Shown here: positions 1 to 59,914 of the stretch, in pieces
Layout of the letters: every line of letters starts with the position of its first letter
Numbering within the stretch: position 1 is the first letter of the stretch
Assembly (NCBI GenBank): GCA_004335835.1
Contig: RWJK01001583.1
Coordinates: 1-64,000 of the forward strand
Direction of reading: 5' to 3'
DNA from: Scenedesmus sp. ARA3
Lineage: Eukaryota > Chlorophyta > Chlorophyceae > Sphaeropleales > Scenedesmaceae
Length of the DNA stretch: 64,000 nt
Program-made: the position numbers and the translations under genes
Notes under the pieces: generated by a model
Database searches by the model: none
Told to the model about the DNA's origin: nothing
What the model saw: the letters and a program-made list of their open reading frames with translations, nothing else

Positions 1-4
1 AGGG

Positions 5-370
5 GTGAGGGAGAAGGAGCTCAAGGCGGCACTGAAGAAGGTGCGGGCTGGTGCAGGGAATGCAACGTTTAGTGTTGTCATAGTGTGCAGATTGTGTGGA
101 GGAGGGCGCTCTAAAGGGTGCGGGAGGGTGTGCATTGTGTGTTGGCGCCGTAGGGTGCTGTTGGGGCGGTTTGTGATTGATGTTGTGGGCGCTGATTGAT
201 GACCCTGCGCTGCTGGAGGCGCTGGCTGGTGGGCTGGAGCAGCGCGGAGTGCGGGAGAAGGAGCTGAAGGCGGCACTGGAGAAGGTGAGGTCTGGACGTG
301 AGGTTGCGACGTGTTAAGATGTTGCATGTGCATGCGGGAGAGGGAGCCGCAGGCTGGGCTGCAGAAGGTG
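5..370 (+). repeat. Three diverged copies of an exon 3' end with donor site
   Basis: The segment encoding VREKELKAALEK followed by a GT donor occurs at 5-43, 248-288 and, more degenerate, at 334-370. The middle copy is the one that joins in phase to the next exon. Confidence 0.6.
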
Positions 371-1354
371 TGTGTGAGGGACATGGTGGTGTGCAGACGG
401 CGTTGGCGTGGCGTGTATCATCTATGCTTGCATCGAACGTTTGCGAAGAAATAGTCTACCAACCTTGAACGTATGCTTTGCACAACAAGCCATGTGGTGC
501 ATCCGTGCCACGGCTGTCCTGCTGAGCTACACATCTCCAAGGGTCTGTCGTGCTGAAAGTTCCATTGTAGGGTGTCAATCTCACCACACCTTGCACCTAC
601 CATGCTGTGCTGCGTGCAGATGCTTCCTTCCATGTCAACTGCCATCGCAAAGGCAGCAGCAGCCAAGGCAGCAGCAGCCGCCAAGGCCGCCGCAGAGTCA
701 GGCCAATGTGCTGAGGCAGGCAGCGGCGGCAAGCGCGATAGGAAGAAGGATCGGGAGGCTGCAGCAGCATTTGTCATCCCCCGGGAGCTGCCGTCCCGGC
801 ATGCCAGGTCAGCTGCGGCTGAGCAGATCCGCAAGACGGGCAGCGTTGCTGCTGCTGCTGCCAGCAAGGGCAGGGAGGAATCGGCTGTGGCTGTGGAGCA
901 GGACGATGAGGAGCCGACAGGTGCGTGTTTTTATTTCTGGTGGATGTTTTACGTGCTTTATGTAATGTGTCAGCTGCTGTGGGGTTTGTGTGAAACATGG
1001 TGCCGATCCTGTGGAGCAGGATGTTGAGGAGTTGACAGGTGTGCTGATGGACGCACTGGTGGTGCTTTGTATGCTGATGGACTTGCTGGTGGTGTTTGGC
1101 AGCAACACAGCAGGGATGATGCGGCATCCGGCACAAGGGGTGTGTGCAGCATGTTGTTGTGTGCAACAGGCATCGCTGGCGCGGGCAATGGCAACTCATC
1201 AGGTGTGCAGCAGATGCTGCCTGTGAGCCTTTCAAGCACAAGGCACGCAGCTAGCCCCTTGCTGCGCATTGCAACAAGTTGCTGAGCAGCAGTACACCAC
1301 TCCCAGCGTATCATGCATTGTTGCCTGTACCTCCTCCCAGCATTTGTCTGTCTG

Positions 1355-1402
<48 letters not shown>

Positions 1403-3088
1403 ACCTGCAGGCCGCGTGCAGGGTTGGCCCGTTTCCGCCTTCCGCCAAATCCCACATACCTGTCATTGCTGCTGCTGCTGCTGCTGCTGCACTAGCAGGT
1501 CCCCTGCAAGGCTGGACCTTCTCCGCCTTCAAGTCAGCCGTCAGCAACCTGCAGCAGCTCTCAGAGGCAGCAGCAGCCGCCAAGGCAGCAGTGCCGGGCC
1601 CCAGCAGCAGCTGGGCTAGCTACCGCAAGGACTTAGATGCTTTGCTGCATGGGGATCTTCCTGAGGCTTGGGCTGAGGAGGCTGCAGCCTGCAGCGCTGC
1701 AATCATCACTGCTCCAGATGGTGATGAGGATCTGATCGCATCGGCGTCTGTGGGTGGCTGCAATGATGCTGCGTGGATCAAGGCAGTGACAGCGGCAGCG
1801 CAGGCTGCAGCAGCAGCACAGGATGCACCGGATGCACAGCAGGCTGCTGCTGCTGCTGTGGCGCAGCTGCGGCTGCAGCTGATTGCGTTTGAGCAGCAGC
1901 TGGTGGCTGTCAGTGGCGAGTGCCCGTACCTGTACGGCATTGCTGACGCTGATGATGACAACGAGAATGGTGAGGAGGTTGCAGGCAGCGGCGAGGCAAT
2001 CGAAGCAGCAGGCGAGGTGAGCTCGGAAGGAGAAGCAGAGGACAATGCAGCACAACAGCAGCAGCAGAAGAAGAAAGGCCGGGGCACCAAGCGCTCTGCT
2101 GCTGCAACTCCCACAGCCAGCGGGGAGGCAGCAGCAGCAGCAGCAGGTGATGGTGATGCAGATGCTGAGGTGGCGGCTCCTGCAGCCAAGCGCAGGAAGG
2201 GTGCATTTGATGCTGCAGGCCTGCCTCCTAGGCCAGCTTCACGCGGCCCCAGGGGTAAGGCTGCTGCTGCTGCAGCAGCAGCTGAGGCAGCAGAGGGAGA
2301 GGGCGAGGCAGGTGCTGCTGCGGCGCATGGCCATAGCCCTGGGTCACGTGAGGGCTCTGTGGCTCCTGCGTGCAGCGGCGCTGCTGCTGCTGCTGCTACT
2401 GCTGCCAAGGGAGGTGGTAAGAAGCGCGGCCGCAATGCTGCTGCTGACCCTACCTCTGCAGCTGGCAGCAGCAGGGCAGCCAGCCAGGAGCCGCAGCAGC
2501 AGCCGGAGGCAGAGGACGGGGAGGAGCAGCAGCAGCCGCAGGGCAAGAAGCAGCAGGCGCGGCGCGGCAAGGCGGCAGGCGCGGCCGCTCAGAGCCGCCG
2601 CGGCAGGAAGGGCGCTGCTGCTGCTGAGTCTGGTGATGCTGACGAGGACGCAGATGAGGCCGCTGCAGCAGCAGCAGCAGCAGGCAATGCAGTGAATTCT
2701 GCTGCTGCTGAGGATGGCGGTGATGGTGATGGCATGGAGGTGGATGAGGGAGGGGATGCAGATGACGGGGGCAGGCGCCGCCACTCCCTGGCCACCAAGC
2801 ACGGCAACCATGGCCTGGAGGTGAGGCTGCTGCTAGCGGCTGTTGCTGAAGCTGCTGGCTTTGTTGCTGGCTGTGCTTCACGGGCTTAGTTGCTGACTGC
2901 TGCTGTAGCTGCATGCCAGCATGCTGCTGTCACAGCTGCGCTGACAACAGCTGTGTACATAGTACTCTATGCTGCTGCTGCTGTTGTGCTGTGTGCTGCA
3001 GGAGGATGGCGAGGTTCACGAATAAGTTGCCGAAGAGGCAGACTCCTCCACCATCCCTGCACGCCTCAACGGCCCAAATGCTAATAAC

Positions 3089-3135
<47 letters not shown>

Positions 3136-3397
3136 CTATTTGCTGCAGGAGGATGGCGAGGTGCATGAGGAGGTCGCAGAGGAAGCCGACTTCTCCTTCA
3201 TCCCTGCACGCCTCAACGGCAGGACCCTGTGGCGCAGCGCAGACGAGCGCAACTCCTGGCGCAGCAGCGTGGCCGCAGCAGGCACTGCCGCCGGGCTGGC
3301 GTACTGCGCTGCTGCGCTGGTGTTCCATGCTGAGGCGCCGCTGCAGAAGCTGGCTGCGAGCGCAGCCAAGGCGAAGAAGGCAGGCAGCAGGAGGTAG
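180..3397 (+). CDS. Ala/Gln-rich charged, probably nuclear protein (4 exons, 5' end uncertain)
   Basis: Exons 180-284, 620-920, 1499-2820 and 3149-3397 join in phase and give about 658 aa. The ATG at 180 follows an in-frame TGA, but another copy of the exon's end lies at 5-43, so the gene may begin left of the window. Residues 1-35 read as a short helix rich in Glu/Lys. The middle is Ala/Gln/Ser low complexity with several basic KKRGR- or AKRRK-like patches that look like nuclear localisation signals, plus acidic DADEDADE-type runs. The last exon is the only well-ordered part: FSFIPARLNGRTLWRSADER, then a WRSSV..A.T..GLAY segment. That tail loosely recalls the C-terminal helices of DDT/WHIM chromatin proteins (BAZ/ISWI partners), but this is a weak resemblance. 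I do not recognise the gene with certainty. Introns hold diverged copies of neighbouring exon ends and the last exon is followed by a repeat array. Confidence 0.55.
1357..1401 (+). repeat. (CTG)n microsatellite in intron
   Basis: About 15 CTG units lie upstream of a CAG acceptor-like site at about 1410. A second shorter CTG tract at 1470-1490 precedes the acceptor used at 1498. The 40 bases after each site are diverged copies of each other. Confidence 0.85.
2995..3085 (+). repeat. Diverged copy of the last exon's 5' end
   Basis: This stretch matches 3141-3230 (acceptor CTGCAG and the EDGEVHE coding start) but contains an in-frame TAA, so it is a broken exon copy inside the intron. A (CTG)14 tract at 3090-3132 separates it from the real exon. 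Confidence 0.7.
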
Positions 3398-4160
3398 AAT
3401 GCTGCGGCGGCGGCGGGTGGCGGCGGGCGGCGCCGGCGGCGGCTGCAGCGGTTGCTCGTGTTCCATGCTGAGGCACCTCTGCAGAAGCTGGCTGCGAGTG
3501 CGAAGAAGGGGGGCGGCAGGAGGTAGAATGCTGCTGCGGCAGCTGCTGCTGCTGCTGCGGTTGCTGCAGCGCTGTTGTTCCATGCGGAGGCGCCCCTGCA
3601 GAAGCTGGCTGCCAGCGCCGCCAAGGCGAAGAAGGGGGTCGACAGGAGGTAGAATGCAGCTGCGGCAGCTGCTGCTGCTGCTGCTGCAGTTGCTGCTGCG
3701 CTGGTGTTCCATGCGGAGGCGCCGCTACAGAAGCTGGCTGCGAGTGCTGCTAAGGCAAAGAAGGCGGGCGGCATGAGGTGAACTACCGCTGCTGCTCGGC
3801 TTGCAGCTGCTGCAACTGCTGCTGCCGCTGCCGCGGTTGCTGGTGTTCGATGCGGAGGCGCCGCTTCAGAAGCTGGCTGCCAGCGCCGCCAAGGCGAAGA
3901 AGGGGGGCGGCAGGAGGTAGAATGCTGCTGCGGCAGCTGCTGCTGCTGCTGCTGCTGCTGCAGTTGCTGCTGCGCTGGTGTTCCATGCTGAGGCGCCGCT
4001 GCAGAAGCTGGCTGCGAGTGCGGCCAAGGCGAGGAAGGCGGGTGGCAGGAGGTAGAATGCTGCTCATGATGTTCTATGTGGAGGCGGCGGCGCCGCTGCA
4101 GAGACTGCCAGCGCTGCCAAGACCGGGAAGAAGTTGGGCGGCTGGAAGTGAATGCCATAG
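3315..4160 (+). repeat. Tandem array of the terminal coding segment, about 7 copies
   Basis: The sequence coding LVFHAEAPLQKLAASAAKAK, its following stop and a CTG-rich spacer repeats with starts near 3318, 3456, 3574, 3703, 3840, 3976 and 4068 (spacing about 92-138 bases). The first copy is the annotated C terminus. Later copies keep the FHAEAPLQKLA reading and mostly a TAG stop after GGRR. The last copy is degenerate. Confidence 0.8.
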
Positions 4161-13356: not shown

Positions 13357-16300
13357 TGGAGGACGAGCAGGCAGTGGCACAGCAGCAGCACCAGCAGGCT
13401 GACAAGCAGACCCAGCCACTGACAGCAGCAGCTGTCACAGCGCACGCCAAGGCGATAGCAGCAGCAGACGCCAGCCCAGACTTTGTCATGCCCATGCCTG
13501 AGAAGCTGCAGACAGCAGTGCGGGAAAACCGTAAGTCAACTGACCAGGCGCTGATGTCTCCCAAGCACCACCAGGTGGTGCCACCAGACATGCCCAACAT
13601 CAAGCCGCTGATGGCTATGAGCCTCGCCAGGCCTTACACAGGTATACATTCTGCTAGACCTGCAGCAGCAGCAGCAGCAGCAGCAGCTGGGTGACAAGGG
13701 CTCTGTGTGCGTGTCCCGAGCAGACGCCCTTCAGCAGCAGCAGCAGCAGCAGCAGCAGTCAGCCATTGCCTCTGAATGAGTGATGACTGACAGTTGGCCG
13801 CACCTTATTGGCGTATTGAAGCTTTCTAGCTGGGCCGCTGCTGCTAGATGAGCATAGAAGACAGGGGTTACAGGATCAGCAGCAGCCAGCAGCTGTAGGG
13901 ACCTGTGCTGCCCAAAACAGCACAGCAGTGACATCACCATCAGGAGGAACCCACAAATGAACAGTGACTGCTGCTGCATTATGCATGTCACCCTTTCAAG
14001 CATGCATTTGTTTTGCATATTTCACTTTGTAGTTGCATGTAGCCCCCATGACTACAGTTTGCTTGCACTGTAGGCTCATGTCACCTATTGTGCTGTACGC
14101 TGCTGCTGCGCAATGGCTGTGCTCTTCCATGCACCTTGCTCAGCTGTCCGCCGCTTCATCTTGCACTGCTATCCTTGTCCGCACTACATCCTCCTGATCC
14201 CAGCTGTACGCACTGCTGCTGCTGCTGCTGCTGCTGCTGCCGCAGACCCGGACTGGTTTGCAGCCATGTCAGCCCTCGAAAAGGTGCAGAAGGTGCAGCA
14301 GGCACGCGCGCTGCAGCAGCTGCGGGCCCACCACGCGCACGCCACTGCCCGCCACAGCAGCATCTCCGGCATCACAAATGACGATGACACTGAGGCATGG
14401 TATGACGCGCGCAGCGCCACAATGTCTGATTCAAGTGTGGCATTCATCAGTGATGCTGAAAGGGAGGAGGTGGCAAGGCTGGCACATGAGATGGAGGAGA
14501 CAGAGCACGCACAGGGGCAGCTGACAGTGAGCGTGGTGCGGGAGCTGGAGCCGGCCACACCGAACTGCGTGCCCAACCCGCCGCTGCTGTTTGCGGAGAA
14601 GCACTGGAAGTACATCCCGGTGAGTGTGGGCTGGCTGCTGGTTGTTCAGCAGTGTGAGCATGCGGCTATGCGGCTATGCAGCTTTGCAATATGCATTTTG
14701 TTGATTTGGGTGAGGCGTTGGCACTGGAAGCACTGGGAGTACATCTCCATGAGTGGGCTGGCTTTGTTCAGCTGTGGCTGGAGTGAAGGATATAGGTCTG
14801 CTGCTGCATGCATGCTGTTTGCGGAGAAGCACTAGAAGTACATCTCGGTGAGTTGCGCAGGGGCCGCAGGCAGGGGCTGCATGTATCTGTGGCAGCTGTA
14901 TGCCGCAGCAACCATTCTTGGGCAGCGCGGTTTGCCTGCGAGGTGATCCGGTGCAGGCAGGGATGTTTGAAGTTGGCACGCCCTTCCGAGCAACTGTCAG
15001 CAGCTGGCTGCATGCCGCACGTGGTCCATCTGTCACCTGACGCTTGCCCTGCTGCTGCTGCTGCTGCTGCCGCTGCTGCCGCTGCTGCTGCTGCTGCCGC
15101 TGCTGCTGCTGCTGCTGCTGCCGCTGCTGCTGCTGCTGCCGCTGCTGCTGCTGCTGCCGCTGCTGCTACTGCTGCTGCTGCTGCCGCTGCTGCTGCTGCT
15201 TCCACCCCCCAGGTGAACACCAAGCCCTTCCTGTTCTACTGGGAGCGCGACCCGCTGCGCAGCAGCCCCTTCCCGCTGCCCATCGACGAGCAGATGAAGC
15301 TCAACAGCCTCTTCCAGAAGACGCACCAGTCCATCCCGGGCATGTGGGTGAGTGCATTTGTTTTTGAGTCCCACTGTGCGGCGCAAGAGAGAGGACAGAA
15401 GAGAGGGGCCCTGCAGCGCTGCTGCTGCCACATGCAACTGCTACTTGCCACTATGCAGCAGGCGCGGCGGAGTATGTGCCGAAACGACAGCAGTGATGTG
15501 CAGCGGCCTGCACCACGCCATGTTGTGTGTGGCACCGTCAGCTGTATATGCACTTGCCGTTCTCATTGACGCCGCCACCGCCGCTGCTGGTGCTGCTGCT
15601 GCTGCTGCTGCCGCAGCTGCGCGAGGTGGGCTCCCAGCTGCTGCTGCACGCGCAGCCGACGCTGCTGGCCATCCCCGGCATCGTAAACTACACCGAGTAC
15701 TACAACAAGGACCAGAGCCCCAGCCACTGGACGCTGCGGCGCGACATCAAGATCGGCAAGACCATGGGCCAGATGTTCATGACCACGGACGGCGTGCTCA
15801 TCTTCAGGTGTGTTACGTAACTGTTATGTAGCGTGTTCGTTTCCACTTTGTCACAAAGTCTTTGTGGGTGGGGTGGCGCGATTGTGGGTGGGGTGGCGCG
15901 ACACAAGATCGGCAAGACCATGGTCCAGATGTTCATGACCACGGACGTCGTGCTGATCTTCAGGTGCGTTACAAAGCTGTTATCTGAGGTGTGTGATGTT
16001 ACTTTGTGATGGTGTGGCGCGACATCAAGATCGGCAAGACCATGGGCCAGATGTTCATGACCGCGGACGGCGTGCTCATTGCCAGGTGCGGCAAGAGTGC
16101 AAGTATTGAAGCAAGTGATCGAGCGTCAGTGTCTCGAGAGCTGGCAGAATAGCCGGCTGCAGAGCCACCTGGCGCGCCCTTGCATGCATCCATTGTGTGC
16201 TGCAGCATTTCCTGTCATCTCACTCTGCTTGTCCTGCTGCTGCTGCTGCTGCTGCCGCAGGGTGTTCACCATGGGCATGTTCAGCAAGACCATCGAGTGG

Positions 16301-20390: not shown

Positions 20391-20519
20391 TCACAGCTTG
20401 CCCTGCTGCTTCAGGCCGTCCCTGAAGGCCTCAATCACCAGGGCCACATTTGTGGGTGTGGCGTTGTAGCCCATCAGCCCGATGCGCCACACCTTGCCTG
20501 CTGAGGGACCCAGGCCTGC

Positions 20520-20552
<33 letters not shown>

Positions 20553-22584: not shown

Positions 22585-22615
<31 letters not shown>

Positions 22616-23154: not shown

Positions 23155-23188
<34 letters not shown>

Positions 23189-23484: not shown

Positions 23485-23524
<40 letters not shown>

Positions 23525-43081: not shown

Positions 43082-46000
43082 ATGGCAATGTCTAGGGGCA
43101 TCATGCAGCAGCGCTGCGCGCATAGAACTAGTCCAGCAGCACGGCCGCTGCTGCTGCCGCTGCTACCACGCAAACCCGCCGCACTGGCTCGCAGCAGGCA
43201 CCTCACTTGCAGGATACAGGCTGCAGCAGCAGCAGCAGCAGTTAGCTATAGTGACATGAATGGCAGCAGCAGTGCCAGCTGGCAGGCAAACAAGGCACAT
43301 GAAGTGGCCCCACTACCAGCACCACCCAAGTCTGGCCAGAGCCTTGCAGATGTGCTGCCATACCTGCTGAAGCTGGCTTTGTCAGAAAAGCAGCTCAAAT
43401 GGAGGCTGGGCGCTGCATTCGCATGCATGCTGGTATCAAAGGCAGCAGGTGAGTAGCGGCCACAGAATGCGGTGCTCTTTTGGCTCAGTGCACATTTGTG
43501 TTGCACTACTTGTGCACCTAGCAGACATAGGTGTCCTGCAAGCAGATGCACACCAGCAGCAGCAGGCTGCAGTTTTGCTTGTGCTGCATGAAAGTTGATC
43601 CACCAGCAGCGCAGTGCTGCATCGTCTGGTTGATTCACAGCGTGAAAGGCTCTGCCATTGCATCATTGCAGCAAATGCATGCAATGCATGTGTGTGGTCC
43701 CAGGCACATCCGTCCTGTGCATGGATGCTTAGCATCACCATCACCTCACGTTGTGGTGGCAGTCAGCAATCGCTTCAGCCCTGCTCCCAGCCAGCAAGAG
43801 CCTAGACCTGTTCTTGCTGTATCTTCAACTCTGATATGCTCATGTACGTGCTGCTGCTGCTGCTGCTGCTGCAGGGCTGAGTGGGCCGCTGTTCCTCAAG
43901 GCAGCAGTAGACACGCTGTCAGCAGGCGACGCGGCTGTGCTGCTGCCGGCTGTGCAGTGCGTGCTGTGCTTTGGGCTGTGCGGGGTGGTGCAGCACCTGA
44001 CAAAGGAGCTCACGTACCCAACATTCACACCGATTAGCCAGGTGAGGGTTTTGCACAAGAGCATTGGTAGAATAGCACAAGGCAGCACTGCAACGCGTAT
44101 CACTGTTGCATGGATGTATACTTTACTTACCTAGCAAGAGCATGATAAAGGAGCAGCAGTGTGGCAGCAGGTGCTGCAGCAAGAGCCGCCAATGCAGAGG
44201 GCGTGTCACACGGCGTTCATGCTGCGTGACGTGGCTCTGCTGCAGCAGGCTGACGCCACATATAAACTTCTCGTTTTTCTCACGCTTCACATTGCATTGC
44301 ACCATGGATGCTGCTGTGGCACTATGTAACGGACTTCTGCTCCTGCTGCTGCTGCTGCTGCGGCTGCAGGCTGTTGCGCGTCGTGTTGCGTACCAGACCT
44401 TCAGCCATGTGCTGGAGCTGGACATAACCTTCCACATGAACAGGCGCACCGGGCGGCTGAGCAGGATCCTGGAGAGGGGTGAGCCACAGCAGCAGCACCA
44501 GCGGCGGCGGCGGCGGCAGCAGCAGCAGCAGCGCCTGCAGCAGCAGAGGCAGCGGCGCCAGCAAGAATCATGCCTGCTTGCTCGTTCTTGCCAGTTTAGG
44601 GTTGCGGCAGCGGAAGCGCAGAGCTAATAGCAGCCAAGATGGCTTGACTGCGGCTCTGCAGGGGTGTGCAGAGGCTCGCTTTCTCTGTGCATACGCCACA
44701 GCAACTTGATGTGCTGCTCTACAGAGTGCATCTGGCCATGCCTTGATCATCATCCTGACGTGTAGGTGACGCCTCACCCATGATCAGCTGCTTATGACAA
44801 GCATCTGCTCCTCTGCTTACGTACCCCGCAAGCACGCGCAGCATCCAGATGTTGTACCACGCTGCTCCCCCCGCCCGCTCACCCATTTCTCCCGTTGTCT
44901 GTACGTTTCCTGTGCACCTTGAACGCACCACGCAGGCCCTCGCAGCATCCAGATGCTGTACCACGCAGTGCTATTCACGTTTGCTGAGGACAAACATATG
45001 TCCAATGTATGCGTCCGCAGGCACGCGCAGCATCCAGATGCTGTACCGCGCGGTGCCGTTGCGTCTCACGCATGATCAGCTGCTGATGACACACATCTGT
45101 CCAATGTATGTGTTTTGCAGGCACGCGCAGCATCCAGATGCTGTACCGCGCGGTGCTGTTCACGTTTGCGCCCACCTTCATCGAGCTGGTGTTTGTGGTG
45201 GGCCTGCTGGCCAGCCGCTTCAGCCCCATGGTGGCGCTGCTGGTGGGGGGGACCTTCGTGCTGTACGTGGCATGGACCATCGCCATGACGCAGGTGAGGA
45301 AGCGTTGCTCTGAGTGTGTTTCGTGTGTGTTCCGTTGTTTGCTTGTGCTCTGAAGAGGGGGTTTGCAGTTTGCACGGAAGCGTAAGAGCCTGTGTTTGTG
45401 CTGCCCCGTGGTGTCGCGGCGGGTGGGCGGAACTTGTTTGCTGTACGTGGCCTGCACCATCGCCATGACGCTGGTACTACCTAGAAGGGGCTGCTGCATG
45501 GAGCAGCACTTGCATGTGACGCACTTGGCCATGAGTGAACCAGCTGCACAACCTCACCACCTGTGTGCGCCTGCCTTGCTGCTGTGCTGCGCTGCCCTGC
45601 TGCCGCCAGGCTGCTGTAGAAGTGCGCAAGCAGGTGAACCAGCTGGACAACCTGACCACCAGCAAGGCTGTTGATGCGCTGCTCAACGCGGAGACAGTGG
45701 CGCTCTTCAACAACAGGCAGCTCGAGGTGGGTTTGCGTTTTAAAAGAGGGGAAGTCACAAGTGGGTCCTGGCACTATCTTAGAGCCACAACAGGGTGAAC
45801 ACCAACAAGCTGGTCTAATACATGTGTTTCTGTGCAGCTGACTGTCTGTATTGCTGGAAGCAGCGCACACAGCAGCAGTGTAACAGGGTACGGCAGCTCC
45901 AAGTACGACGATCACCTGCAATTTTCTGCTCGCGGCCACAGGCATGCTGTTGACCACCTGCTGCGGGTGTATGCTGTCTGCTTAACACATGTGACACGCG

Positions 46001-46314
46001 ACATGTCTGCAGGTAAACCAGTATGACCACTACCTGCGGGGCTACCAGGCTGCAGCCATCCAGACAGAGCGGCTGTCCGCGCTGCTCAATGCAGGGCAGA
46101 GCGTGATCCTGTCTGCAGGTACGACAGGGCTGGATAGCAAACATCACCACTTTCACAGCTGAAACACACATGTCTACAGAGGTTGCCAGCTCTTGCAGGC
46201 CTGCAAGCTGCCTTCTCGCTTAGAAGCTGAGCTGCAGACTGGTTTGCTGTTCCTTTTTCTGTGCAGCACTTGTTGTGTCGAGGAACGGGCGTGGCGATCA
46301 TAAGGTTCGTTGTG

Positions 46315-46368
<54 letters not shown>

Positions 46369-48666
46369 CTTACCTTATGAAACCTGATGTCCGCAGGCCT
46401 CACATGTGTCATGGTGGCGGCAGTGATCGGCGGTCAGGGCGCGGAAGCCATGGCAGCAGCAAAGGCAACAGGCAGCAGCATGATGGCCTCTGCTGCTTCT
46501 GCAATGATGGGAGGCGGCAGCGGCGCTGCAGCAGCTGGTGCTGCTGGTGCTGCTGCTGCTGCTGGTGCAGCTGGTGCTGCTGCTGCTGCGCCGGCAAGCT
46601 TTGCTGGTGCTCTTGCCAGCCCTGGTGACTTGGTGCTGCTGCAGGGCCTGCTGCTTCAGCTCTGGGGACCGCTGCAGTGAGTTGACCCGGCCAGAAGCGC
46701 CGTCAGTTCTTTTGCTGCCAGTACAACAACAATAGTTATCAATATATTCAAATGAGTAACTGCAGGCGTTCACATGTCGCAGATGGGGCCATCTATTTAA
46801 TCAGAACTCCATTCCGCCGCTAACCCAATATGCGTGTGACACTGTGGTGCCGCAGGTTCCTGGGCTGGTTTTACAGGGAGATCCGCCAGTCGCTGGTAGA
46901 TATGGAGGAGGTGGGTGTGACCGTTACTTTGGTCGTTGCTTTGACCATGTGTAGAATACAAATGAATATTGTCAGGGTGCCGCAAGGGCGCCCGTTATCT
47001 CTGTGGGTTTCTAGGCAGTGTCCTGTTTCGTTTGCTCCGTTAGTTGTCGGTAGGGCGCCTTGAACCAAGCGCGCGTCTGTCTGTTACTGCTGTAGGTGCA
47101 TTTCACATGGTGAACGCATCACACCGGTTCCCTTTTTGAAAACGGTGCTTCATTACATTTGCCGCCTGTTTTATTCGCGTGTGGCTGCTCCTGGCTGCAG
47201 TTCTTTGACATCCTGAAGACCAAGAACAGCTTGCCAGATGGCACCACCCCGCTGCCAGACGTACCACCCAGCCTAGCAGACAAGCTGGCAGCAGCAACAG
47301 CAGCAGCCAGCAACGGCCACAACGGCAGCAGCGCGGCTGCCGCTGCTGCAGCAGCAGCGATCAGCGGCAGTGCAGTCAGCAGCACTGACAAGCAGTCTCT
47401 TGTGGAGGCTGCCTTGCTGCTGGACCAGCAGCAGCACCCGCAGCACCAGCGGCTGCAGCAGCAGCAGCACCACAACCTTGGATCTGCAGATCCGGAGTAT
47501 GGCTTCTACAGTGCTGCTGCAGATCCAACTTTGAGCATCTCAGGTTTGGGACTGGAGGTTGAGCTTGATGATGTTGTGTTTGGCTACCACCCTGAGCGCC
47601 AGGTGGGTAATTTTGGCAACAAGTTGCAGTGCAGCGTGTAGCATGTTCTGTATGACAAAGCATGCAGTTGTAGTTGCCAGGCAGTTATTCACCGAGTGCA
47701 ATTGCTGAAGGGAGTGAGCTTCAAGGCGCTTGCAGCCTGCTGTTTAGGCAATTACTCAGCGCACGCACCCAGATCATTATATGCATTTGTTTATTATGCC
47801 CAATGCAGGTGCTAAAGGGAGTGAGCTTCAAAGTGAAGCCAGGGGAGTCAGTGGCAGTGGTGGGGCCCTCAGGCAGCGGCAAGTCAACCATACTGAAGCT
47901 GGCAACACGGCTCTATGACGCAGGCTCGGGCATTGTCAAGGTGGGCGTGGCTTTAGCTAATGTGCCTTGCTATTTCCTAGTGTATACATTTGTCTGTGTT
48001 CCAGTATCTGCTGGAGATCATTGGGCTTGGCGGTGTGGGCTGCTATACATTTTCTGCTATCTTGCATGTTTAGGATGTCAGGTGGCGGTGGCGGGGCCCT
48101 CGGGCAGCGGCAATTCCACCATACTGAAATTGGCAACTCGGCTCTATGATGCAGGCTCTGGCATTGTCAAGGTGGGCATGGCTTTAGCTAATGTGCCTTG
48201 CTTTTCCTAGTGTATACGTTTGTCTGTGTTCCAGTATCTGCTGGAGATCATTGGGCTTGGCGGTGTGGGCTGCTATGCATGTTCTGCTATCTTGCATGGT
48301 TAGGATGTCAGGTGGCGGTGGTGGGGCCCTCGGGCAGCGGCAAGTCAACCATACTGAAGCTGGCAACACGGATGTATGATGCAGGCTCAGGCGTTGTCAA
48401 GGTGAACGCGGCTTGAGTTCATGCGTTACTGTAATTGTGTACACATTCGTATGTGTTTAAATGTCTGCTGGAGGTTGGTGGGCTTGGAGGTGCTGGCTGC
48501 TGTGTATTTGCTGCAGCTATCTTGCAGCAGCAATGCACCAGCACAGTAGCAATAGTATTGTTTTGAGTGCGCAGCAGCGCGGCATTAGGTTATCGCCCTA
48601 CTGCAGCCGACACTGTGTTGACCTGCGGCTGTCTGTTCTGCTGAACTGCTCTTGTTGTTGCGCTTG

Positions 48667-48723
<57 letters not shown>

Positions 48724-49814
48724 AGGTGAACGGCGTTGATGTGCGTGACCTGCAGACGGCCAGCGTGCGCAGCAGCGTGGCAGTGGTGCCGCAGGACACC
48801 GTGCTCTTCAACGACACCATCCTGCAGAACATCAGGTGCGCATATTACTATTATTGCTGTTTTGTGCATTGCCGAATCTTTTTCCGTCCTTTGGCATGAT
48901 TCACCACCTTTCGCCTCTTTCAGCTGCTCCTCCTCATGCTGCACCATTTCAGTGCTGGACAAAGTGCGCGATCTGTATGCTCATGCCGGGCCACTCTCGT
49001 CTCACCATCTGCTGCTGCTGCTCCTGCTGCTTCTGCGCAGGTACGGCAAGCCTAATGCCTCAGACGAGGAAGTCATCGCAGCCTCCCGCATGGCGCACCT
49101 GCACGAGGCAGAGCTGCGCATGCTGCACTGCGTTTTCAATACAACGCTGCTGCTGCTGCAGTGCAGGTGCAAGCCCTCAACACAGCTGATGAAACAGCTA
49201 TCGCCACTTTCTGCCATGCTGCGCTGATGTTGTTGTCTGCACCTCTGCTTCCCTCATCTTCCTTCCATGCACAGGTACGGCAAGCCCAACGCCAGCGATG
49301 AAGAAGTCATCGCAGCGTCCCGCATGGCGCACCTGCACGAGGCAGTGCTGCGCATGCCAGACGGCTACTCCACAATGGTTGGGGAGCGAGGCCTGAAGCT
49401 GTCTGGCGGAGAGAAGCAGCGCGTGGCGATTGCACGCGCCTTTTTGCGCGCGCCGCGGCTGCTGATCTGCGATGAGGCGACGAGTGCGCTGGACACGGCC
49501 ACGGAGGCATCGATCCTGGGCAGCTTGAATGAACTGGCGCGCGTGAGTCCTCAAAGGAACTTGTTTTATCCACAGGATTCTGATATATAGATCAACATTT
49601 GACGATGGGCTGTATCGTGCAGTGAAGGGCTTGCTTTTGTTTACAGTGGAGTGCTGATATGGCGATTGTTTGGCTGCCTGTGCATTGCGTTCAAGAGCAG
49701 CTTGCTGCTGCGGTTCCAAAGCACCTTCAGCTGGCTGTGTAACCTGCTGCCACAAACTATCTGGAACTTGTCACCAGTTGACAAACCGCCAACACCCACC
49801 TGCTGCTGCTGCTG

Positions 49815-49852
<38 letters not shown>

Positions 49853-50372
49853 TTGCTGTGTTGCTCTGTCGCAGGGCGGCACCAGCATCTTCATTGCGCC
49901 CCGGCTCAGCACAGTGGAGCCTACTACCTGACGAGGCAGCTAATCCTTTGCTGCTGCTGCTGCTGCTGCTGCTGTGGCTGCATTGCAGGGCCGCAGCAGC
50001 ATCTTCGTCGCGCACCGGCTGAGCGCAGTGGAGCATACTACCTGACAGCAGCTAAACATTTGCTGGTGCTGCTGCTGCTGCTGCTGCTGTATTGCCATGT
50101 CGCAGGGTCGCACCAGCATCTTTGTCGCGCACCGGCTCAGCACAGTGGCGGGCTGCGACCGCATCCTAGTGCTCAGTGAAGGCCGCCTGGTCGAGCAGGG
50201 CAGCCACGCGCAGCTGATCGCATCAGGGGGCGTATACAAGGACATGTGGATGCGCCAGGCTGCGGAGGGCAGCAGCAGCAACAATGTGGCTGAGGCCAGC
50301 AGTGATGAGGAGGCTGATGGAGAGCCTCTGGAGCCGCTGCCTGCGGCGCTGGCACGGGGCCGGAAAGAGTGA
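43082..50372 (+). CDS. ATM1/ABCB7/HMT1-type half ABC transporter, 13 exons
   Basis: Exons 43082-43448, 43875-44041, 44370-44478, 45121-45293, 45610-45726, 46013-46118, 46397-46676, 46856-46910, 47201-47602, 47809-47940, 48726-48835, 49275-49542 and 50106-50372 join in phase to 850 aa. An Arg-rich leader ([12 protein letters not shown]...) suggests mitochondrion or plastid. The membrane domain has the family landmarks [36 protein letters not shown] and [18 protein letters not shown]. Exon 7 holds an Ala/Gly insert and exon 9 an Ala/Gln linker. In the nucleotide-binding domain, Walker [10 protein letters not shown] is at 611-619, Q-loop VPQD at 657-660, signature LSGGEKQ at 715-721, Walker B LLICDEA at 735-741 and H-loop AHRLS with His at about 771. 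Relatives export glutathione-linked sulfur/Fe-S precursors or heavy-metal thiol complexes. Exons 4, 5, 10, 12 and 13 and the 3' end have tandem copies. Confidence 0.93.
44832..45170 (+). repeat. Four copies of ABC exon-4 acceptor edge
   Basis: The start of exon 4 ([12 protein letters not shown]) appears at 44832-44866, 44938-44990, 45021-45065 and 45121-45170. Only the last continues into the full exon. Exon 4's other edge is copied at 45421-45482, and exon 5's early part at 45530-45562. Confidence 0.85.
46317..46367 (+). repeat. (CTG)n microsatellite in ABC intron 6
   Basis: About 16 CTG units, about 25 bases before the exon-7 acceptor at 46396. Confidence 0.9.
48082..48171 (+). pseudogene. 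Walker-A exon copy 2, catalytic Lys changed to Asn
   Basis: A 90-nt in-phase segment bounded by a CAG acceptor and a GTGGGC donor duplicates the second part of exon 10. It reads GPSGSGNST, so the Walker A lysine is lost. Flanking introns are also copied from the first unit. Confidence 0.8.
48312..48401 (+). other. Walker-A exon copy 3, intact motif
   Basis: A third 90-nt in-phase cassette with CAG acceptor and GTGAAC donor reads GPSGSGKST and [12 protein letters not shown]. It could be spliced in as an extra or substitute exon without frameshift. Confidence 0.75.
48668..48722 (+). repeat. (CTG)n tract forming the ABC exon-11 acceptor
   Basis: About 18 CTG units run directly into CAG at 48723-48725, the 3' splice site of exon 11. 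Confidence 0.92.
49041..49130 (+). repeat. Partial copy of ABC exon 12 start
   Basis: Codes [20 protein letters not shown] after its own CAG acceptor, as exon 12 does at 49275, but breaks off before the signature motif. Confidence 0.85.
49876..50045 (+). repeat. Two truncated copies of ABC exon 13 start
   Basis: Copy 1 (49876-49930) reads [16 protein letters not shown] then stop, with the H-loop His changed to Pro. Copy 2 (49990-50042) reads [16 protein letters not shown] then stop. Each has its own CAG acceptor in the same phase as the true exon at 50106. Confidence 0.82.
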
Positions 50373-50752
50373 CGCACGGGGGAGAAGGTGTGACCAAGGC
50401 GCAGAAAAGAGTGACACGGACGCCAGCAGTGACGAGGAGGCTGATGGCGAGCCGCTGGAGCCGCTGCCTGCGGCGCTGGCTCGTGGCTGGAAAGAGTGAC
50501 GCACGGCTGAGAAGGTGTGACACAGGCTTGGAAAATAGTGATGCGGAGGCCAGCAATGATGAGGAGGTGGATGGGGAGCCGCTGGAGCCGCTGCCTGCGG
50601 CGCTGGCACGCGGGCGGAAAGAGTGACGCCAGCGCAGGAAAGAGTGACGTCGGCGCAGGACAGAGTTACCAAGGGGTGGGAAGCAGCGCCTGGGTGGCGA
50701 GCCGCTTGAGCCGCTGCCTGCTGCGCTGGCGGGAGGACGGGGAAAGAGTGAC
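50281..50752 (+). repeat. Tandem array of ABC terminal segment, 4 copies
   Basis: The acidic C terminus ([24 protein letters not shown] and TGA) is repeated at about 50296-50372, 50420-50499, 50546-50626 and, shortened, 50692-50752. The first is the annotated end. Confidence 0.85.
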
Positions 50753-50955
50753 GTCGGCACAGGAAAGGATGCGTGCCTGCTGAGTCAGCCAAGCTGGTGG
50801 TATTCCTTAGCATCAGCATCAGCATCTTTGTCACTATGTTACTTAGACGACAGCTGCTTTGCTGCATTTGCGCCGCGTCTGAACTGCTGGTCTGGCGGCT
50901 GCTAGCAGCGGCGCGGTGATGAGGGATGCAGGCATATGTGAGCAAGGACGCCTGC

Positions 50956-54018: not shown

Positions 54019-56652
54019 GACAAACTTAAATGCAGAGAGCATATAGTCACGCCTTTCACATCTTTTGGGGGTTGGCTTTCCGTATTTTCTTACTTGTATT
54101 GCACACAGAGGCCAGCTCAACAAGCCAGGCTGATCACTAAGGAAGCTAGCAGGCTGAAGGTGATGAATGAAAGCACCAGATGGGAACCAATATCATGGCG
54201 TGATACAACCAAATGGGTGCTTATATACCGTGTGGTAACAGCAATCAGATGCTTGCTTACCTTGTGCTGCGTCCAGTTCAAACTGCCAGCTGCCACAGGT
54301 GTACTTCCGCACACCTCCCCCTGCAGAACGACCTGCTACCCTGTGCCTGACCCCAGCCGCAGCATCAACAGCAGCTGGCTGTGCTTGTCCTCTGTGGTGC
54401 AGTTGCTGCTGCGCCTCGTCCTGCTGCTGCATTTCCTGCATGCGCTGCTGCTGCCCGCCCGCAGCCTGCTGTGCTAAATGCTGCAGGCGCCTGCTGGGGC
54501 TGGCCCTTGCACCCTGCTGCAGCTGCTGCAGCGGTTTGACGCCTGCTTTATCGTGAAATGCCTCCTCTGTTGAAGCCTCCTGTGCAGGCCTTTCACTGCT
54601 GCTGGAGCTGCTAAAAGTTGCTGATGACCCTGTCAGGTGCCTCACTGCGCCTGCAGCTAGCAGTGCTTCTGCACTGACTGCTGCCAGCTGCTGCCGGCTG
54701 GCCAGGTCAGCAGCATACGACTGCTGCACAGGGTGGGTGGCTGGCAGTGCCTGCGGCATACAAATGAACCCTACTCTTGGAAACTTCTTGTTTGTTGTCA
54801 AACTTGAACAGCAGTAGTCAGAGCAGATCGTCACATATTACATGAATTGCAGGAGTAATTCGTGCAGTGTTGTAGCTATCACGCGCCATACCAGCATGCA
54901 TGTTGCTGTTCCTGTTCCTGTCCCTATTGCTGCTGCCACTGCTACATCTAAACACATACACACAGCTGTTGCTGCTGCTGCTGCTGCTGCTGTTGGTGTT
55001 GGTGCTCACCTGCAGTGCCCAGGGTATGTACGCGGCCTGCCTGTCCCAGGCATGTATGCAGCGTGCATAGTTGAGGCACGGCCCCTCCCTGAATGGCACA
55101 CTGTCTGGTACATCAAAGCCGCTGCCCACTGCTGCTGCTGCTGCTGCTGGATGTGGCTGTAGCTTGGCTGGTTGATGAGTCTTTGCAGCTTTTGGTGGCA
55201 GGCAGGAGTAGAAGTCAGGGTTGCTGTAGTTGACAAAATCATGCAGAGTCTTCTTAACGTCCACGCCCCTGCATGCAAAACAGCAGATGCCAACACAACA
55301 GCGACAGAGTATGCGCTGAAAATAGTAAACGAGAGGTGTTTGCAGGCAGCAAGAATGGCAACCACGCAGGCAGGAGGGCAGGAACAGAGCGCATTTTTTC
55401 AAGCTGATAGCAGGGAAGAAGGCGTACACATGCGCACTGTCATGCAGCCACCTTCCACAGAGGAGCAAGTGTAGGTGTGTGCTGCTCAGCAGGTCCTGCA
55501 GTGCTGCAAAAGTTGAGAGCAGAAACCAAGGCTTCCACATGGCACTGCCGTGCATCCATCTCCAAGAAGCAGTACACGTTTTACTTTGTGCATCAGGTCC
55601 TGCAGTGCTGCAGGCGTGGCCCTCACCAGGTGTGCTCTGGTACCTTGAGCAGCAGCCTGCTGAAGTTGTAGAAGGAGCCACCCTGCAGCAGCAGCAGCAG
55701 CAGCAACGGCAATGAGAAGCAGAAAAGCAGCTTCCACCTTTGACCAGACAGGAGCTGCCTTCAGTTGCCAGTGGTCACACGGAAAGTGTATGTCGAGACA
55801 AAAGCTCACAGTGCATCATGGGTACAAGCTATTTCTTGCCCTGTTGCCTTTCCAGCAGCTGACAGGCATGGCTATCCAAGCTGTGATCTACCAAAGTGGC
55901 CGTGCAGTAGCTGTGTTTGTCCAAGATTTTGCTGCCACCACCACTACTGCTGCCAGCATTGCTGCTGTATCACATAGCTCAAGGGGCTGTGTACAAACAA
56001 CTACAGTGCTGCAGGCGGCAACGTTGCGTTGCCAGTGCCAGCTCACTTGAGAGGGGCAGGCAGCTACTGCTGCCAGCACTTCTGCTGTATCACACCAAAC
56101 ACAAGGCTACTGTAATGCTGCAAGTGACAGCATTGAACATGCCACTGGCAGATTACCTGAGAGGGGCAGGCAGGGTCGTCAATGCAGGCAGCCCTGGCAC
56201 GGCTGGCCGCCCTGAAGTTTGCAGTTTTAAGCGGGTCACTCTGCACACCAAACACCCAGGTGTCTCCAATCTCTCCTGCAAGGGGGGTGAAAAGGCAAAC
56301 CAGGTGTAGTGTTCAAGCTTGACCATGCATGTCCAGGCACAGGAGAAGCTTTCAGTTGCAGGGGCATAGTACAAATACTGATGATACCAGGCCATTAGAC
56401 CCTGTTATGATGCAAGCAGTTCCGAGACAAAACTCTCACAAAGTGCTGCAACCCTGGATGTTGTGCTGGGCTTTTTGACGCTCCCAGGCACCCAAGCCAA
56501 CGGCCTTGACGGTGGTCCGTCCACAGATGAGTCGGTTCGCAGTGCTGCAGGTGCTTACTACCCACCAGTCACGACTGTCAGGTTGAGGGTGGGCAGGGCC
56601 TCCAGCACAGCATCAACAAAGGCATCAAAGCTGCTGGCCTTGACCACCACAT

Positions 56653-57274: not shown

Positions 57275-57323
<49 letters not shown>

Positions 57324-58298
57324 TGTCTGGCATGGCTAACAGTGCACATGCAACAGAAAAGCAGTAAAGCATGCAGGGATCTGACGATCAAGTATGGTGA
57401 TAGCTGGGCAGCCTGAGTTGGGCAACAGCAAATGCAGCATCCAACAACATCAATGCCGACAGGCTTGCAGCAGCTGACGGCGTTGCTTTGACAGCAGCTG
57501 CACATCTGGGCCTGAGGCCCAATAGTGACAAGGACAGTATTAACACAGACAACGTCACTTGAAAAACATTGATGACAAGCACCTGGCCTCCAGAAGGCCA
57601 GCAGCTGCTATCTGAGGCCCAAGGTATGAAACCAACAAGCTCTTACAAAAACATTGGAATATCTCAACTGTCTCAGAAGCACCCGCACCTGGCCTCCAGA
57701 AGGCCAGCAGCTGTGTGCCTGAGGCCGGAGGCCTGAAACCAACAAGCCCTTACATTAGCAATAGAACATATCAAAAGTGCCACAAGCGCCCGCACCTGGC
57801 CTCCAGAAGGCCAGCAGCTGTGTGCCTGAGGCCTCATCCCTCCAGATGAATGGCGTGAACATGGGCACCCCGGGGGGCGCAGAGCCTGCAGCGCAGAACA
57901 ATCGACACCCGAGACTGCAGCGCTGAACAAATGATCAAAGGAGCCTGCTGCACTGGACAATCGAAGGGCGTGGACATGGGCACCCCGGGAGGGGCGGAGC
58001 CTGCAGCACACAAGGCAGCAGGGCCACAAGTCATGAAACACGTGTGCATGCAGCGTTGCGTGGTCGTGCGCTGCAGCTTTGTACAATTACAAAAGATGAT
58101 GCTGTCAAGGAAGCTGTTACATGCAAGTTGGGTACATGTAAGTGTCGAACCCTGGTTTGAACGCGACAATGCAGGGTTCAACCCTGAAAATCACAACGCC
58201 CTAGCGCCCACCAGGGTTCACGCCCACAGAGACCGCCTTGATGCCCTTGGCAGCCAGCAATGGGATGACTGCACGCGTGAGGCCAGGCACGTCACGCT

Positions 58299-58334
<36 letters not shown>

Positions 58335-59914
58335 GCGGCAGGAAGCGGCATTGGGAGGTGGGACAAGTGGGTGCAGATGTGGCAGCAGCAGCGGCAGCAG
58401 CAGGCGCGGCCAGTGTAATGCTCACCTTGCATCAATGAATGCACATGCCAGGCATTCTGCCTGCCAAATGGCTGCTATGCCGTCACTGTGCTCCCATGCC
58501 AAGACGCCACAAATATCTCACCAGGAAGATGGTGTGCTTGGGTGCGAAGCCGAAGCGCCTGTTTAGGTCATACACGCTGCTCTTGCATGCAATGCCAGAA
58601 TCAGCCACAGCCTTGCAAGAAAGCCATAAAGCCTCACCAGGAAGATGGTGTGCTTGGGTGCAAAGCCGAAGCGCCTGTCCATGTCATGCACCAGGTCCAC
58701 TGAGAAGGCCAGCAGTGAGGGGTCGTACAGCTCATACTGCGCGTTGTGGGGGTGTGCATGCCAGGTGATGGCGCCTGCAGGATACAGCACAAACACAGCT
58801 GTTGGTTGGCTGCTCTTTAGAGCTGCTGTGAGGCGAGCTTGCACAGTAAGCAGCACACATTGTTTGAAAAGATGTGCCATCAACATCAGGCAGAAAGGGC
58901 CTGCATTGTCACGGTGTGTCATCTCGCTAAGGCTCGTACTATCTTCAGACAGCATCACAGCCAGCACTCAACTTCTCTTCATATGCAGCTAGGCTGGCTC
59001 CTGTGCAGCAACTAACCCGCACCTGACTGTATGCCGCGCAGCACCTTGGCGCGTGTGAAGGGCCCTGGGCAGGCCAGCCCCATGCCCCGGGGGCAGTCCA
59101 GGAACATCGACAGCAGCCAGGCGTGCGTGGTGTAGATGTAGCTGTCCCCATGCGGGCTGACTTGCTGCATCCAATCCGCGTTGTCGACCTGTGGGGAAAG
59201 GGGAGGGGTTTGATGATTGCAAAGCTCAGTGGCGCGCTAAGTGAGGAGGCAAGCATGCCCAGTTGCTGCTGCTGCTGCTGCTGCTGCTCTACAACGCTGC
59301 TGCTGCTGCTCCGCTTGGAGGTACAGAGTGTTGGTGCTCACCGCGAGTGGCAGGTATCTGTTGAAGTACATGTTGAGAACGTTGCTGTCATAGCCGGTGT
59401 AGGGTTCAATGTTGTCAAACCCTGGCATGACATTTGGCGTGCAGTTGCAGCAACAAGACCACAAGTGACAATCAGAGGGATCTATCGCAGTTGCAGGGTG
59501 TTGCAGCTGCATCGCAGTTTGCAGGCATGCGGAGTTCTGCAGCAGCTGCTGCCCGGTGATAGCAAGCATGATGGAGCACACGCATAAGCTCGACGAGCAA
59601 TCTGGGATGATTGGGAGGCTGCAGCCGCCGGCCCCGCCTGTTTGAAACAGCACTGTGCAGCACCGCTGCACAGTGCTGTTTCAGTTCCCCAGTTTTGGTA
59701 CCTATGTCCTGCACAGCATAGAAACATGCACCACAGGTAACTGGGTTAATGAAAAGTTGAACTTTGACCTGGTAGCATCTTGAGAAGCAACAATGAGTGG
59801 ATGGTGGTGACTTACCAAGTGATTGGAGAACACCACATGGATGGTCTTGCCTGCTGCCTCAATAATGGAGCCCAGGCAAGCAACAGCCAGCAATAACGTG
59901 TATAAATGCAACAT
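51735..59914 (-). CDS. Secreted glycoside-hydrolase-like (DUF5054-type) protein, 19 exons
   Basis: Exons 59816-59914, 59702-59708, 59342-59421, 59023-59188, 58638-58774, 58212-58296, 57796-57885, 57159-57272, 56566-56805, 56157-56275, 55627-55682, 55010-55268, 54261-54750, 53796-53985, 53531-53600, 53098-53249, 52647-52812, 52103-52318 and 51735-51809 keep phase throughout and give 936 aa. Residues 1-20 are a signal peptide (MLHLYTLLLAVACLG). The N-terminal half has FSNHLDIGFD at about 29-38, WLLSMFLDCP, ITWHAHPHNAQ, DMDRRFGFAPKHTIF, FIWRDEASG, GYGGIHGG and GDTWVFGV, an order I associate with the GH38-related family annotated DUF5054. The C-terminal half has LLLKVPEHTW, an Ala/Gln insert in exon 13, and GVHFNLMNNVWGTNYVMWVP near the end. 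Role: probably a secreted or vacuolar carbohydrate-active enzyme; substrate unknown. Family name is from memory, the gene structure from phase-consistent splicing. Confidence 0.82.
52034..52090 (+). repeat. Short tandem repeat of about 12-15 nt in last intron
   Basis: Imperfect repeats of CAACAGCATCTT / CAACAGCTTCTT lie just below the exon end at 52103. Confidence 0.65.
52598..52642 (-). repeat. GGATAAAAG tandem repeat after a donor
   Basis: On the coding strand the donor GTGAGG at 52646 is followed at once by about five imperfect units of GATAAAAG-type sequence, unlike the CTG-type repeats elsewhere. Confidence 0.7.
56658..56736 (+). repeat. (CTG)n tract inside an exon
   Basis: About 26 CTG units with one CCG. 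The gene is on the minus strand, so this is CAG read as AGC and encodes poly-Ser between KPGSS and HVVVKAS of the DUF5054-like protein. Confidence 0.9.
57276..57321 (-). repeat. (CTG)n tract forming an intron 3' end
   Basis: On the coding strand about 15 CTG units run into the CAG acceptor of the exon starting at 57272. Confidence 0.9.
59643..59683. repeat. Perfect 18-bp-stem hairpin in intron 2
   Basis: Arms 59643-59660 and 59666-59683 are exact reverse complements (TGAAACAGCACTGTGCAG) around a 5-base loop. It lies 18 bases from the 7-nt microexon. Confidence 0.92.
59702..59708 (-). CDS. 7-nt microexon of the DUF5054-like gene
   Basis: GACATAG between CTGTGCAG and GTACCA. Without it, exon 1 (phase 0) cannot join exon 3 (needs one base). 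With it the junction reads N-H-L-D-I-G-F-D, the expected conserved motif. Confidence 0.85.

Follow-up and report, generated by a model that had tools for sequence, protein, structure and literature searches.

Tandem copies of exon ends, in pieces of about 115 bases, in the introns of a green alga

Among the closest described systems, the potato RdRp gene gained a new intron when a genomic segment spanning an intron-exon boundary was duplicated in tandem, a single case outlined in PMC4974935. In the AGGT model of intron gain, in the form given in sections of a review (PMC3443670) and a Drosophila study (PMC2891723), the stretch between two AGGT copies becomes an intron, such that a copy of the upstream exon end lies at the intron's 3′ end, at an offset of about the intron's length. 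In helq-1 mutants of Caenorhabditis elegans, spontaneous tandem duplications run from ~100 bp up to 10 kb, with a median of ~1 kb, and are attributed, in the relevant part of PMC8654963, to recombination intermediates that fail and undergo end joining. Here we describe a green alga, Scenedesmus sp. ARA3, in which exon ends, in pieces of ~115 bases, have been copied side by side, over and over, into the introns next to them, and the extra copies are hidden by splicing. The genome belongs to Tetradesmus obliquus or to a strain very near it.

As far as the account in PMC4974935 goes, the algal copies resemble the potato RdRp case in that the duplicated segment spans the exon-intron boundary and the parental splice signals are kept, with the limit that intron homology is lacking at z > 2 in 34 of 57 pairs. 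Unlike that single event, there are dozens in 250 kb of the alga, in arrays of up to about seven, and they mostly extend existing introns with a preferred spacing of ~115 bp. With AGGT intron gain, as set out in those portions of PMC3443670 and PMC2891723, the alga shares direct, local, tandem duplication in which exon sequence is copied along with splice-site motifs, but the algal copies sit inside older, longer introns. The first-pass annotation, made from the DNA alone, had seen an extension of the AGGT intron-birth idea, which the offsets do not support: with a unit as long as the intron and the copy abutting the acceptor, offset and intron length would agree, but agreement within 20 bp was found for just 3 donor copies out of 46 and for no acceptor copy out of 32. 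Introns gain sequence on a genomic scale here, as they do with introners and transposon-made introns, the subject of PMC9860276; unlike introners, no dispersed family of related copies was seen, with 0 distant similarities in the masked window. The duplications are small, like those of the helq-1 mutants as reported in that part of PMC8654963, but unlike these they are mostly of ~115 bp and lie at coding edges. Finally, the 23 whole-unit arrays with a period of at least 60 found in 247.6 kb are head-to-tail and direct, as in minisatellites, but their location is not independent of gene structure, 15 of the 23 containing a predicted exon edge.

The window is the whole stretch of 64,000 nucleotides that was analyzed. 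A self-dot-plot, run as a self-BLAST after masking of CTG/CAG-type repeats, gave 74 similarities in the window, all of them direct and less than 1 kb apart; none fell at about 4.1 to 14.5, 25.3 to 44.7, or 59 to 64 kb. A copy of the exon's own edge was found in its own intron at 35 of 250 donor edges and 26 of 253 acceptor edges, against 0.6 and 0, respectively, expected from mismatched introns, and the reverse complement of the same intron gave 0 and 1 matches. (Introns shorter than 60 bp [272 to 260] and exon edges shorter than 25 bp were excluded from this count, and locus L021, with a GC content of 0.206, was left out as organellar.) In held-out pieces, copies were present at 3 of 39 donor and 2 of 41 acceptor edges, with 0.1 expected for each. 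The phenomenon thus extends beyond the window, and these controls, applied after CTG masking, bear out the central claim of the first-pass annotation, that exon ends recur with their splice sites as diverged direct tandem copies. Its further suggestion that introns are largely built from such copies is not supported: a copy is detectable at 14% of the donor edges and 10% of the acceptor edges. The 247.6-kb sample held 173 direct pairs less than 600 bp apart, 13 direct pairs at 600 bp or more, and 1 inverted pair. Matches between loci in this wider sample numbered 23.

The smallest spacing was 95 to 135 bp in 46 of 74 clusters, 190 to 270 bp in 9, less than 95 bp in 4, and other in 15; the corresponding counts for the nine held-out clusters were 4, 2, 2, and 1. 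The peak is not limited to splice sites, because the range of 95 to 135 bp also takes in 4 of the 8 clusters that lie outside gene models and 1 of the 2 that are intron-only. Spacing did not correlate with exon length (rho 0.19, P = 0.22, n = 42), and the idea that exon length sets it was rejected. Introns that hold copies are mostly longer (median, 278 bp). Stepping of intron lengths by 115 was also considered, and the length histogram had no visible peaks.

One gene with copies is that of a serine/alanine-glyoxylate aminotransferase (AGT1; minus strand, exons 25142..20394), the spliced product of which aligns to 1vjo. About ten duplication events had been claimed for it, and we indeed count ten edges with copies, six donor and four acceptor. 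The acceptor edges are those of the exons starting at 20515, with a 100% identical copy 95 bp upstream (20481..20607); at 22464, with a copy 107 bp upstream (22410..22569); at 23147, with a copy 108 to 112 bp off (23091..23262); and at 25142, with a copy 102 bp upstream (25108..25258). The donor edges are those of the exons ending at 20954, with a 33-bp 100% copy 118 bp into the intron (20834..20984); at 21781, with a diverged copy about 96 bp off (21676..21830); at 22371, with two tandem copies at periods of 83 and 119 bp (22124..22405); at 22954, with a 95% copy 114 bp off, the match stopping after GTGAG (22835..23009); at 23964, with two copies (23700..24014); and at 25006, with two copies at 109 and 228 bp (24770..25071). 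One more decayed copy can be read by eye in this last region.

AGT1 has a paralog, AGT2, on another contig. At the 58 sites where the paralogs' exons differ, the copies agree with their own exon at 43, with the paralog at 8, and with neither at 7, so that derivation of the copies from the paralog can be rejected; where both paralogs' exons agree, the AGT1 copies differ at 39 of 482 sites. The two copies at the exon end at 23964, however, carry the AGT2 state at all four sites where the AGT1 and AGT2 exons differ, which implies that this array has undergone no conversion since the exon changed. AGT2 has a copy of its own at the matching place. An AGT1 product containing the copies was sought in another Tetradesmus obliquus annotation, and none of the 13 matches was named as Scenedesmaceae.

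A second gene (plus strand, 43256..50369) encodes an ATM1/ABCB7-type ABC transporter, and its spliced exons correspond to T. obliquus P0121, being identical but for 8 residues missed by the gene model (the last exon was compared by eye). Acceptor-edge copies lie upstream of the exons that start at 45121 (three copies; 44770..45169) and 45634 (one copy, 99 bp upstream; 45535..45660). The donor edge at the predicted exon end at 45293, beside the missed residues, has a copy 180 bp off (45259..45475). Further along, one acceptor edge is present twice, 234 bp apart (49034..49357), and another three times, about 115 bp apart (49867..50148), P0121 using the second and the last, respectively. The coding end, with its stop codon, occurs in three to four 127-bp copies (50292..50767). 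The donor edge at 47940 lies in three tandem 230-bp units (47847..48530). Among 94 coding and 122 intron columns, unit c3 is the only one to differ at 3 and 32, respectively (Fisher P = 1.6e-6), and unit c2 the only one at 6 and 3. The coding and intron parts of this array thus have discordant histories.

Elsewhere on the plus strand, donor edges with copies were found at predicted exon ends at 920 (118 bp downstream; 891..1041) and 14619 (at +129 and +228; 14585..14853), an acceptor edge at the exon predicted from 3149 (147 bp upstream; 2996..3220), and tandem copies of an exon edge region, spaced at 122 to 157 bp, at 15735..16119. The ends of predicted coding sequences, stop codons included, form arrays of about six copies at 3314..4065 and about seven at 16385..17402. 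On the minus strand, donor edges with copies lie at predicted exon ends at 56157 (110 bp off; 56030..56173), 57796 (a 107-bp tandem array; 57579..57833), and 58638 (116 bp off; 58517..58691), and an acceptor edge at the predicted exon start at 57885 (115 bp upstream; 57848..58013). In all, by the thresholds used here, six of roughly eleven genes in the window are affected, rather than the eight or more first proposed, and one of the six is included through a weak match alone (a donor near 28259, score 39, partly low-complexity). The arrays of two to eight copies noted at the outset are real, with a range in the window of two to about seven, and the copies mostly, not always, lie at exon edges with splice sites: three of the largest arrays (3314-4065, 16385-17402, and 50292-50767) sit at a coding 3′ end.

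As the first-pass annotation had remarked, copies tend to stop at the splice site or slightly beyond it, and 61 of 78 come within 3 bp of that site. In an ungapped profile of copies no more than 3 bp short of it, the last 20 bases of the exon have an identity of 0.85 to 0.89 and the first 5 of the intron one of 0.78; values then fall to 0.49 at +5 to +9 and to 0.27 to 0.43 at +10 to +59. Such a stop need not mark the boundary of copying. When the intron parts themselves were compared (57 of the 78 copies, those that come to within 6 bp of the splice site and have at least 20 unmasked bases), residual homology at z > 2 was detected in 23 of 57 pairs, implying that many units once extended into the intron, where the sequence then diverged; such homology was also present in 8 of 20 pairs in which the coding part is at least 95% identical. 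In the other 34 of the 57, intron homology does not reach that level, and joint duplication of the exon and intron parts is at most presumed.

Taken together, the copies are established as tandem, direct, and local, with a preferred spacing and an association with edges; their intron parts are often still distantly homologous. The reading that we tentatively prefer, while rating it slightly short of an even chance, is that tandem duplication of ~115-bp units recurs across coding edges and that the coding part of the copy is then rehomogenized with the exon. Local duplications with this preferred unit, set by some presumed cause, would strike coding sequence. Those within exons would probably be lost, and those across an exon edge or stop codon would survive because the protein is unaffected by an extra copy located in an intron or beyond the stop. 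The coding part of the copy could be rematched repeatedly to the exon, itself held fixed by purifying selection, through gene conversion or through template switching from one nearby direct repeat to another. The intron parts, with nothing fixed to match, would diverge, and similarity would therefore seem to end at the splice site. Conversion, rather than selection or edge-targeted copying, would then be the cause of the coding-intron discordance; no conversion tract was seen directly. A stronger form, possible but doubtful, makes the exon edges fixed masters that seed and reconvert their own copies into neighboring introns in ~115-bp steps, such that concerted evolution bounded by splice sites would be a major route of intron growth.

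A rather unlikely alternative is that neutral tandem duplications fall everywhere and that those at edges are tolerated and stay visible longer through their constrained exon partner. Frame-breaking indels in the copies, the like behavior of stop-codon arrays, and the similar spacing of some clusters outside gene models all suit it. However, 55 clusters contain an exon-noncoding pair and 2 are intron-only, at nearly equal numbers of possible placements (49,030 straddling and 50,937 intron-only), and the 23 whole-unit arrays divide into 15 with a predicted exon edge, 1 intronic, 1 exonic, and 6 outside gene models. (By binomial test, P is 2e-14 for 53 of 55 clusters and 2e-4 for 15 of 16 arrays; 55 versus 2 is the recount of the clusters.) A few of the 55 are at coding ends. 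Masking does not cause the edge excess, as introns were masked less than exons (10.1% versus 13.6%), and coding parts of 95 to 100% identity beside unalignable intron parts cannot be of a single age under neutrality. Conversion alone is not an obvious cause of the two excesses either.

We also consider it unlikely that a process recognizing, or bounded by, splice sites places the exon edge and splice motif ~115 bp into the intron. The frequent end of copies near the splice site and the drop in identity there fit such a process, as does the 33-bp perfect AGT1 copy, whose flanking intron has no clear relation to the original. Against it, many intron parts retain homology, whole-unit arrays take in intron sequence, stop codons behave in the same way, and constant spacing with a variable copied length, the two being uncorrelated, is what a duplicated unit would give.

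Selection for an RNA-level role, such as that of alternative or decoy splice sites, is improbable. In its favor, the c3 coding part has changed less than the adjacent intron part, and, with no shift allowed, 28 of 36 donor copies still have their GT and 20 of 25 acceptor copies their AG. Mismatches by codon position are 5.9, 5.6, and 14.2%, and 143 of 270 are synonymous (43.8% expected), excesses that could also mean weak coding constraint. There is otherwise little sign of such constraint: changes also fall at positions 1 and 2, and indels of 1 bp make up 9 of 12, which speaks against selection and against a role for the copies as coding alternative exons. Copies are moreover patchy among edges and variable in number, and eight introns inspected by eye had no consistent acceptor before the donor copies.

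Very improbable, in our judgment, is an assembly artifact in which contig ends or two haplotypes were joined in tandem. The assembly is a draft of 1,567 contigs, the spacing is presumably close to short-read length, and one of four N runs (16633-16759, the sole gap in the window) lies within the array at 16385..17402. No pair, however, lies within 150 bp of the other three, and the graded divergence and the three to seven copies in some arrays make a simple assembly echo unlikely, as first argued; for a unit of the ABC transporter array, no match was reported away from that locus, and AGT2, on its separate contig, carries a copy in the corresponding position and shares states with AGT1 copies. 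Birth of the introns by tandem duplication of AGGT-bearing exon segments, the copies being remnants, is not supported as the main process and highly improbable: the three fitting donor copies and an AGT1 intron missing by eye from AGT2 are outweighed by the lack of any fitting acceptor copy and by the position of most copies within longer introns, with a second, unused splice motif after them, so that the copies lengthen introns rather than visibly found them.

Intron lengthening and the origin of small tandem duplications are both hard to observe, and here many exon edges carry records of duplication, anchored to conserved sequence and with a preferred step size. Strains of a single alga would allow direct measurement of duplication rates and ages, of conversion, and of effects on splicing, which makes this alga a good place for watching intron growth. 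Gene finders may mistake intronic copies for exons; the one used here did so at 49041-49166 and in AGT1.

Exon-edge copying, in which the donor or acceptor edge of an exon recurs as a diverged direct repeat within its own intron, is a real feature of this alga and is present far beyond the window. With simple repeats (12.3% of bases) masked before self-comparison, the window contained 74 self-similarities, every one of them direct and no more than 1 kb apart. In the 193.6-kb sample, 118 of 124 within-piece matches were direct and within 1 kb (5 were direct but farther apart, and 1 was inverted), and 23 matches connected different sample pieces. Of 250 donor edges, 35 matched sequence in their own intron, as did 26 of 253 acceptor edges, with 0.6 donor and 0 acceptor matches expected from a mismatched-intron control and 0 donor and 1 acceptor matches in a reverse-complement control. 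Five held-out pieces totaling 50 kb, with 11 models and 42 introns, were analyzed with the gene model and thresholds kept as before; they gave own-edge matches at 3 of 39 donors and 2 of 41 acceptors (0.1 expected for each), as well as 18 direct matches, none far and none inverted. Copy density was uneven, such that 7 of 20 sample pieces and 2 of 5 held-out pieces had no close direct pair. An AT-rich piece (GC 0.206) among these 7 is probably organelle DNA within the assembly.

Exon-noncoding pairs, a few of them at coding ends, were present in 55 of the 74 clusters; 9 were exon-exon only, 2 were intron only, and 8 lay outside models. Random 115-bp units would fall within introns about as often as across intron edges (50,937 versus 49,030 placements). 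An unmasked search for whole-unit arrays yielded 15 at edges, 6 outside models (one of which lies at a coding end, 16763-17362), 1 in an exon, and 1 in an intron, the last being a portion of an edge array in piece L012. Arrays of coding-sequence ends that include stop codons lie at 3314-4065, 16385-17402, and 50292-50767 of the window, showing that duplication extends beyond splice sites. Six tandem 99-bp units were also seen at 9086-9692 of piece L014, where no gene is predicted, and CTG/CAG runs are very frequent throughout the window, often immediately 5′ of acceptors.

The minimum spacing was 95 to 135 bp in 46 of the 74 clusters, 190 to 270 bp in 9, below 95 bp in 4, and other in 15; the corresponding numbers for the nine held-out clusters were 4, 2, 2, and 1. 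The 95- to 135-bp range was present in exon-noncoding, exon-exon, intron-intron, and outside-gene pairs, many of the last two kinds being members of edge or coding-end arrays, and in 4 of 8 clusters wholly outside models and 1 of 2 intron-only clusters. Because this spacing recurs outside edges and did not track the length of either the exon or the copied stretch (n = 42), unit size looks mutational, on limited evidence.

The splice site was reached to within 3 bp by 61 of 78 measured copies. Ungapped exon-copy identity was 0.85 to 0.89 over the last 20 exon bases; within the intron it was 0.78 over the initial 5 bases, 0.49 at +5 to +9, and 0.27 to 0.43 onward to +59. Among 57 pairs (median z, 1.6), 23 had intron parts more similar to each other than mismatched controls at z > 2; of the 20 whose coding identity was at least 0.95, 8 did. 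Pairs from one array are not independent. In alignments, intron parts were clearly homologous in L007 and in the first copy of L006 and not clearly so at 20954 in AGT1, the serine/alanine-glyoxylate aminotransferase gene (20394..25142, reverse strand). This residual homology, together with alignments of both kinds, indicates that many duplicated units, not demonstrably all, included intron sequence.

Mismatch rates between exon and copy at codon positions 1, 2, and 3 were 5.9, 5.6, and 14.2%, and 143 of 270 mismatches were synonymous, versus 43.8% expected at those sites; of 12 indels, 9 were of 1 bp. The mismatch pattern is consistent with a freely decaying copy and an exon that accumulates synonymous changes, and weak constraint on the copies is possible. 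With the paralog as the outgroup, 482 sites had the same state in both paralog exons, and aminotransferase copies departed from it at 39 of them; at sites that distinguish the two exons, copies matched their own exon in 43 cases, the paralog in 8, and neither in 7. All 4 informative sites in the array at the AGT1 exon ending at 23964 agree with AGT2, the paralog on contig C1250, which itself has a copy ~122 bp beyond the corresponding exon end, so that this array seems older than the paralog split.

The donor-edge array of the ATM1/ABCB7-type transporter gene (47847..48530, forward strand; exon end, 47940) consists of three tandem 230-bp units, c1 to c3. Coding identity was 0.892 for c1-c2 and 0.925 for c1-c3, and intron identity was 0.963 and 0.746, respectively. 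Among 94 coding and 122 intron columns, the numbers in which one copy alone differed were 3 and 32 for c3 (Fisher P = 1.6e-6), 6 and 3 for c2, and 4 (third positions only) and 1 for c1. The coding and intron parts of these copies have had different histories, the outcome to be expected if conversion or recombination acted on the coding part.

Among the candidate mechanisms, namely, selection, targeted copying, and conversion-maintained copies, we lean toward the last. The open-access titles and abstract openings listed by the searches contained no description of genome-wide exon-edge copies in introns, which is weak evidence of novelty; the closest systems found there are potato boundary-crossing duplication, the AGGT intron-gain model, and helq-1 tandem duplications. 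We regard exon-edge copying as a form of tandem genomic duplication that appears to be new.

The window spans positions 1-64000 of contig C1193 in an assembly that comprises 87.3 Mb in 1567 contigs. All gene models are predictions from a small gene finder trained on the window plus 19 other pieces, which returned 50 models and 272 introns; gene counts are approximate because some models were split or fused (AGT1 had been fused to its neighbor). Two genes were checked by homology. The predicted AGT1 product aligned with PDB 1vjo over 364 of 373 residues with small gaps, and the transporter (43256..50369, forward strand) aligned with 7n58, with an 8-residue gap from the model. The spliced transporter exons equaled the Tetradesmus obliquus protein P0121 up to residue 704, bar 8 residues missed by the model, and the last exon agreed when compared by eye. 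AGT2 gave eleven stretches matching T. obliquus P0011 (four at 100%, two at 96 to 97%, and five at 53 to 88%), some of which are copies or extend beyond exon edges. These matches, which bear out the placement in the Scenedesmaceae by the first-pass annotation, indicate that the genome is that of T. obliquus or a very close relative. Pfam matches were absent for three of four predicted proteins submitted; the fourth, at 33.2 to 36.4 kb, has GTPase and KH domains, as does Era.

Comparison of the AGT1 regions 24509-24080 and 20954-20515 (reverse strand) with C1250:98950-102547 revealed one AGT1 intron without an AGT2 counterpart and another offset by ~17 nucleotides (by eye), differences attributable to gain, loss, or sliding. 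Two central exons (22371-23147, reverse strand) were 91 to 95% identical to those on C1250, the other main stretches being 72 to 85% identical, and the paralogs share residues within each of two Scenedesmus-type species; together, these observations hint at conversion between the paralogs.
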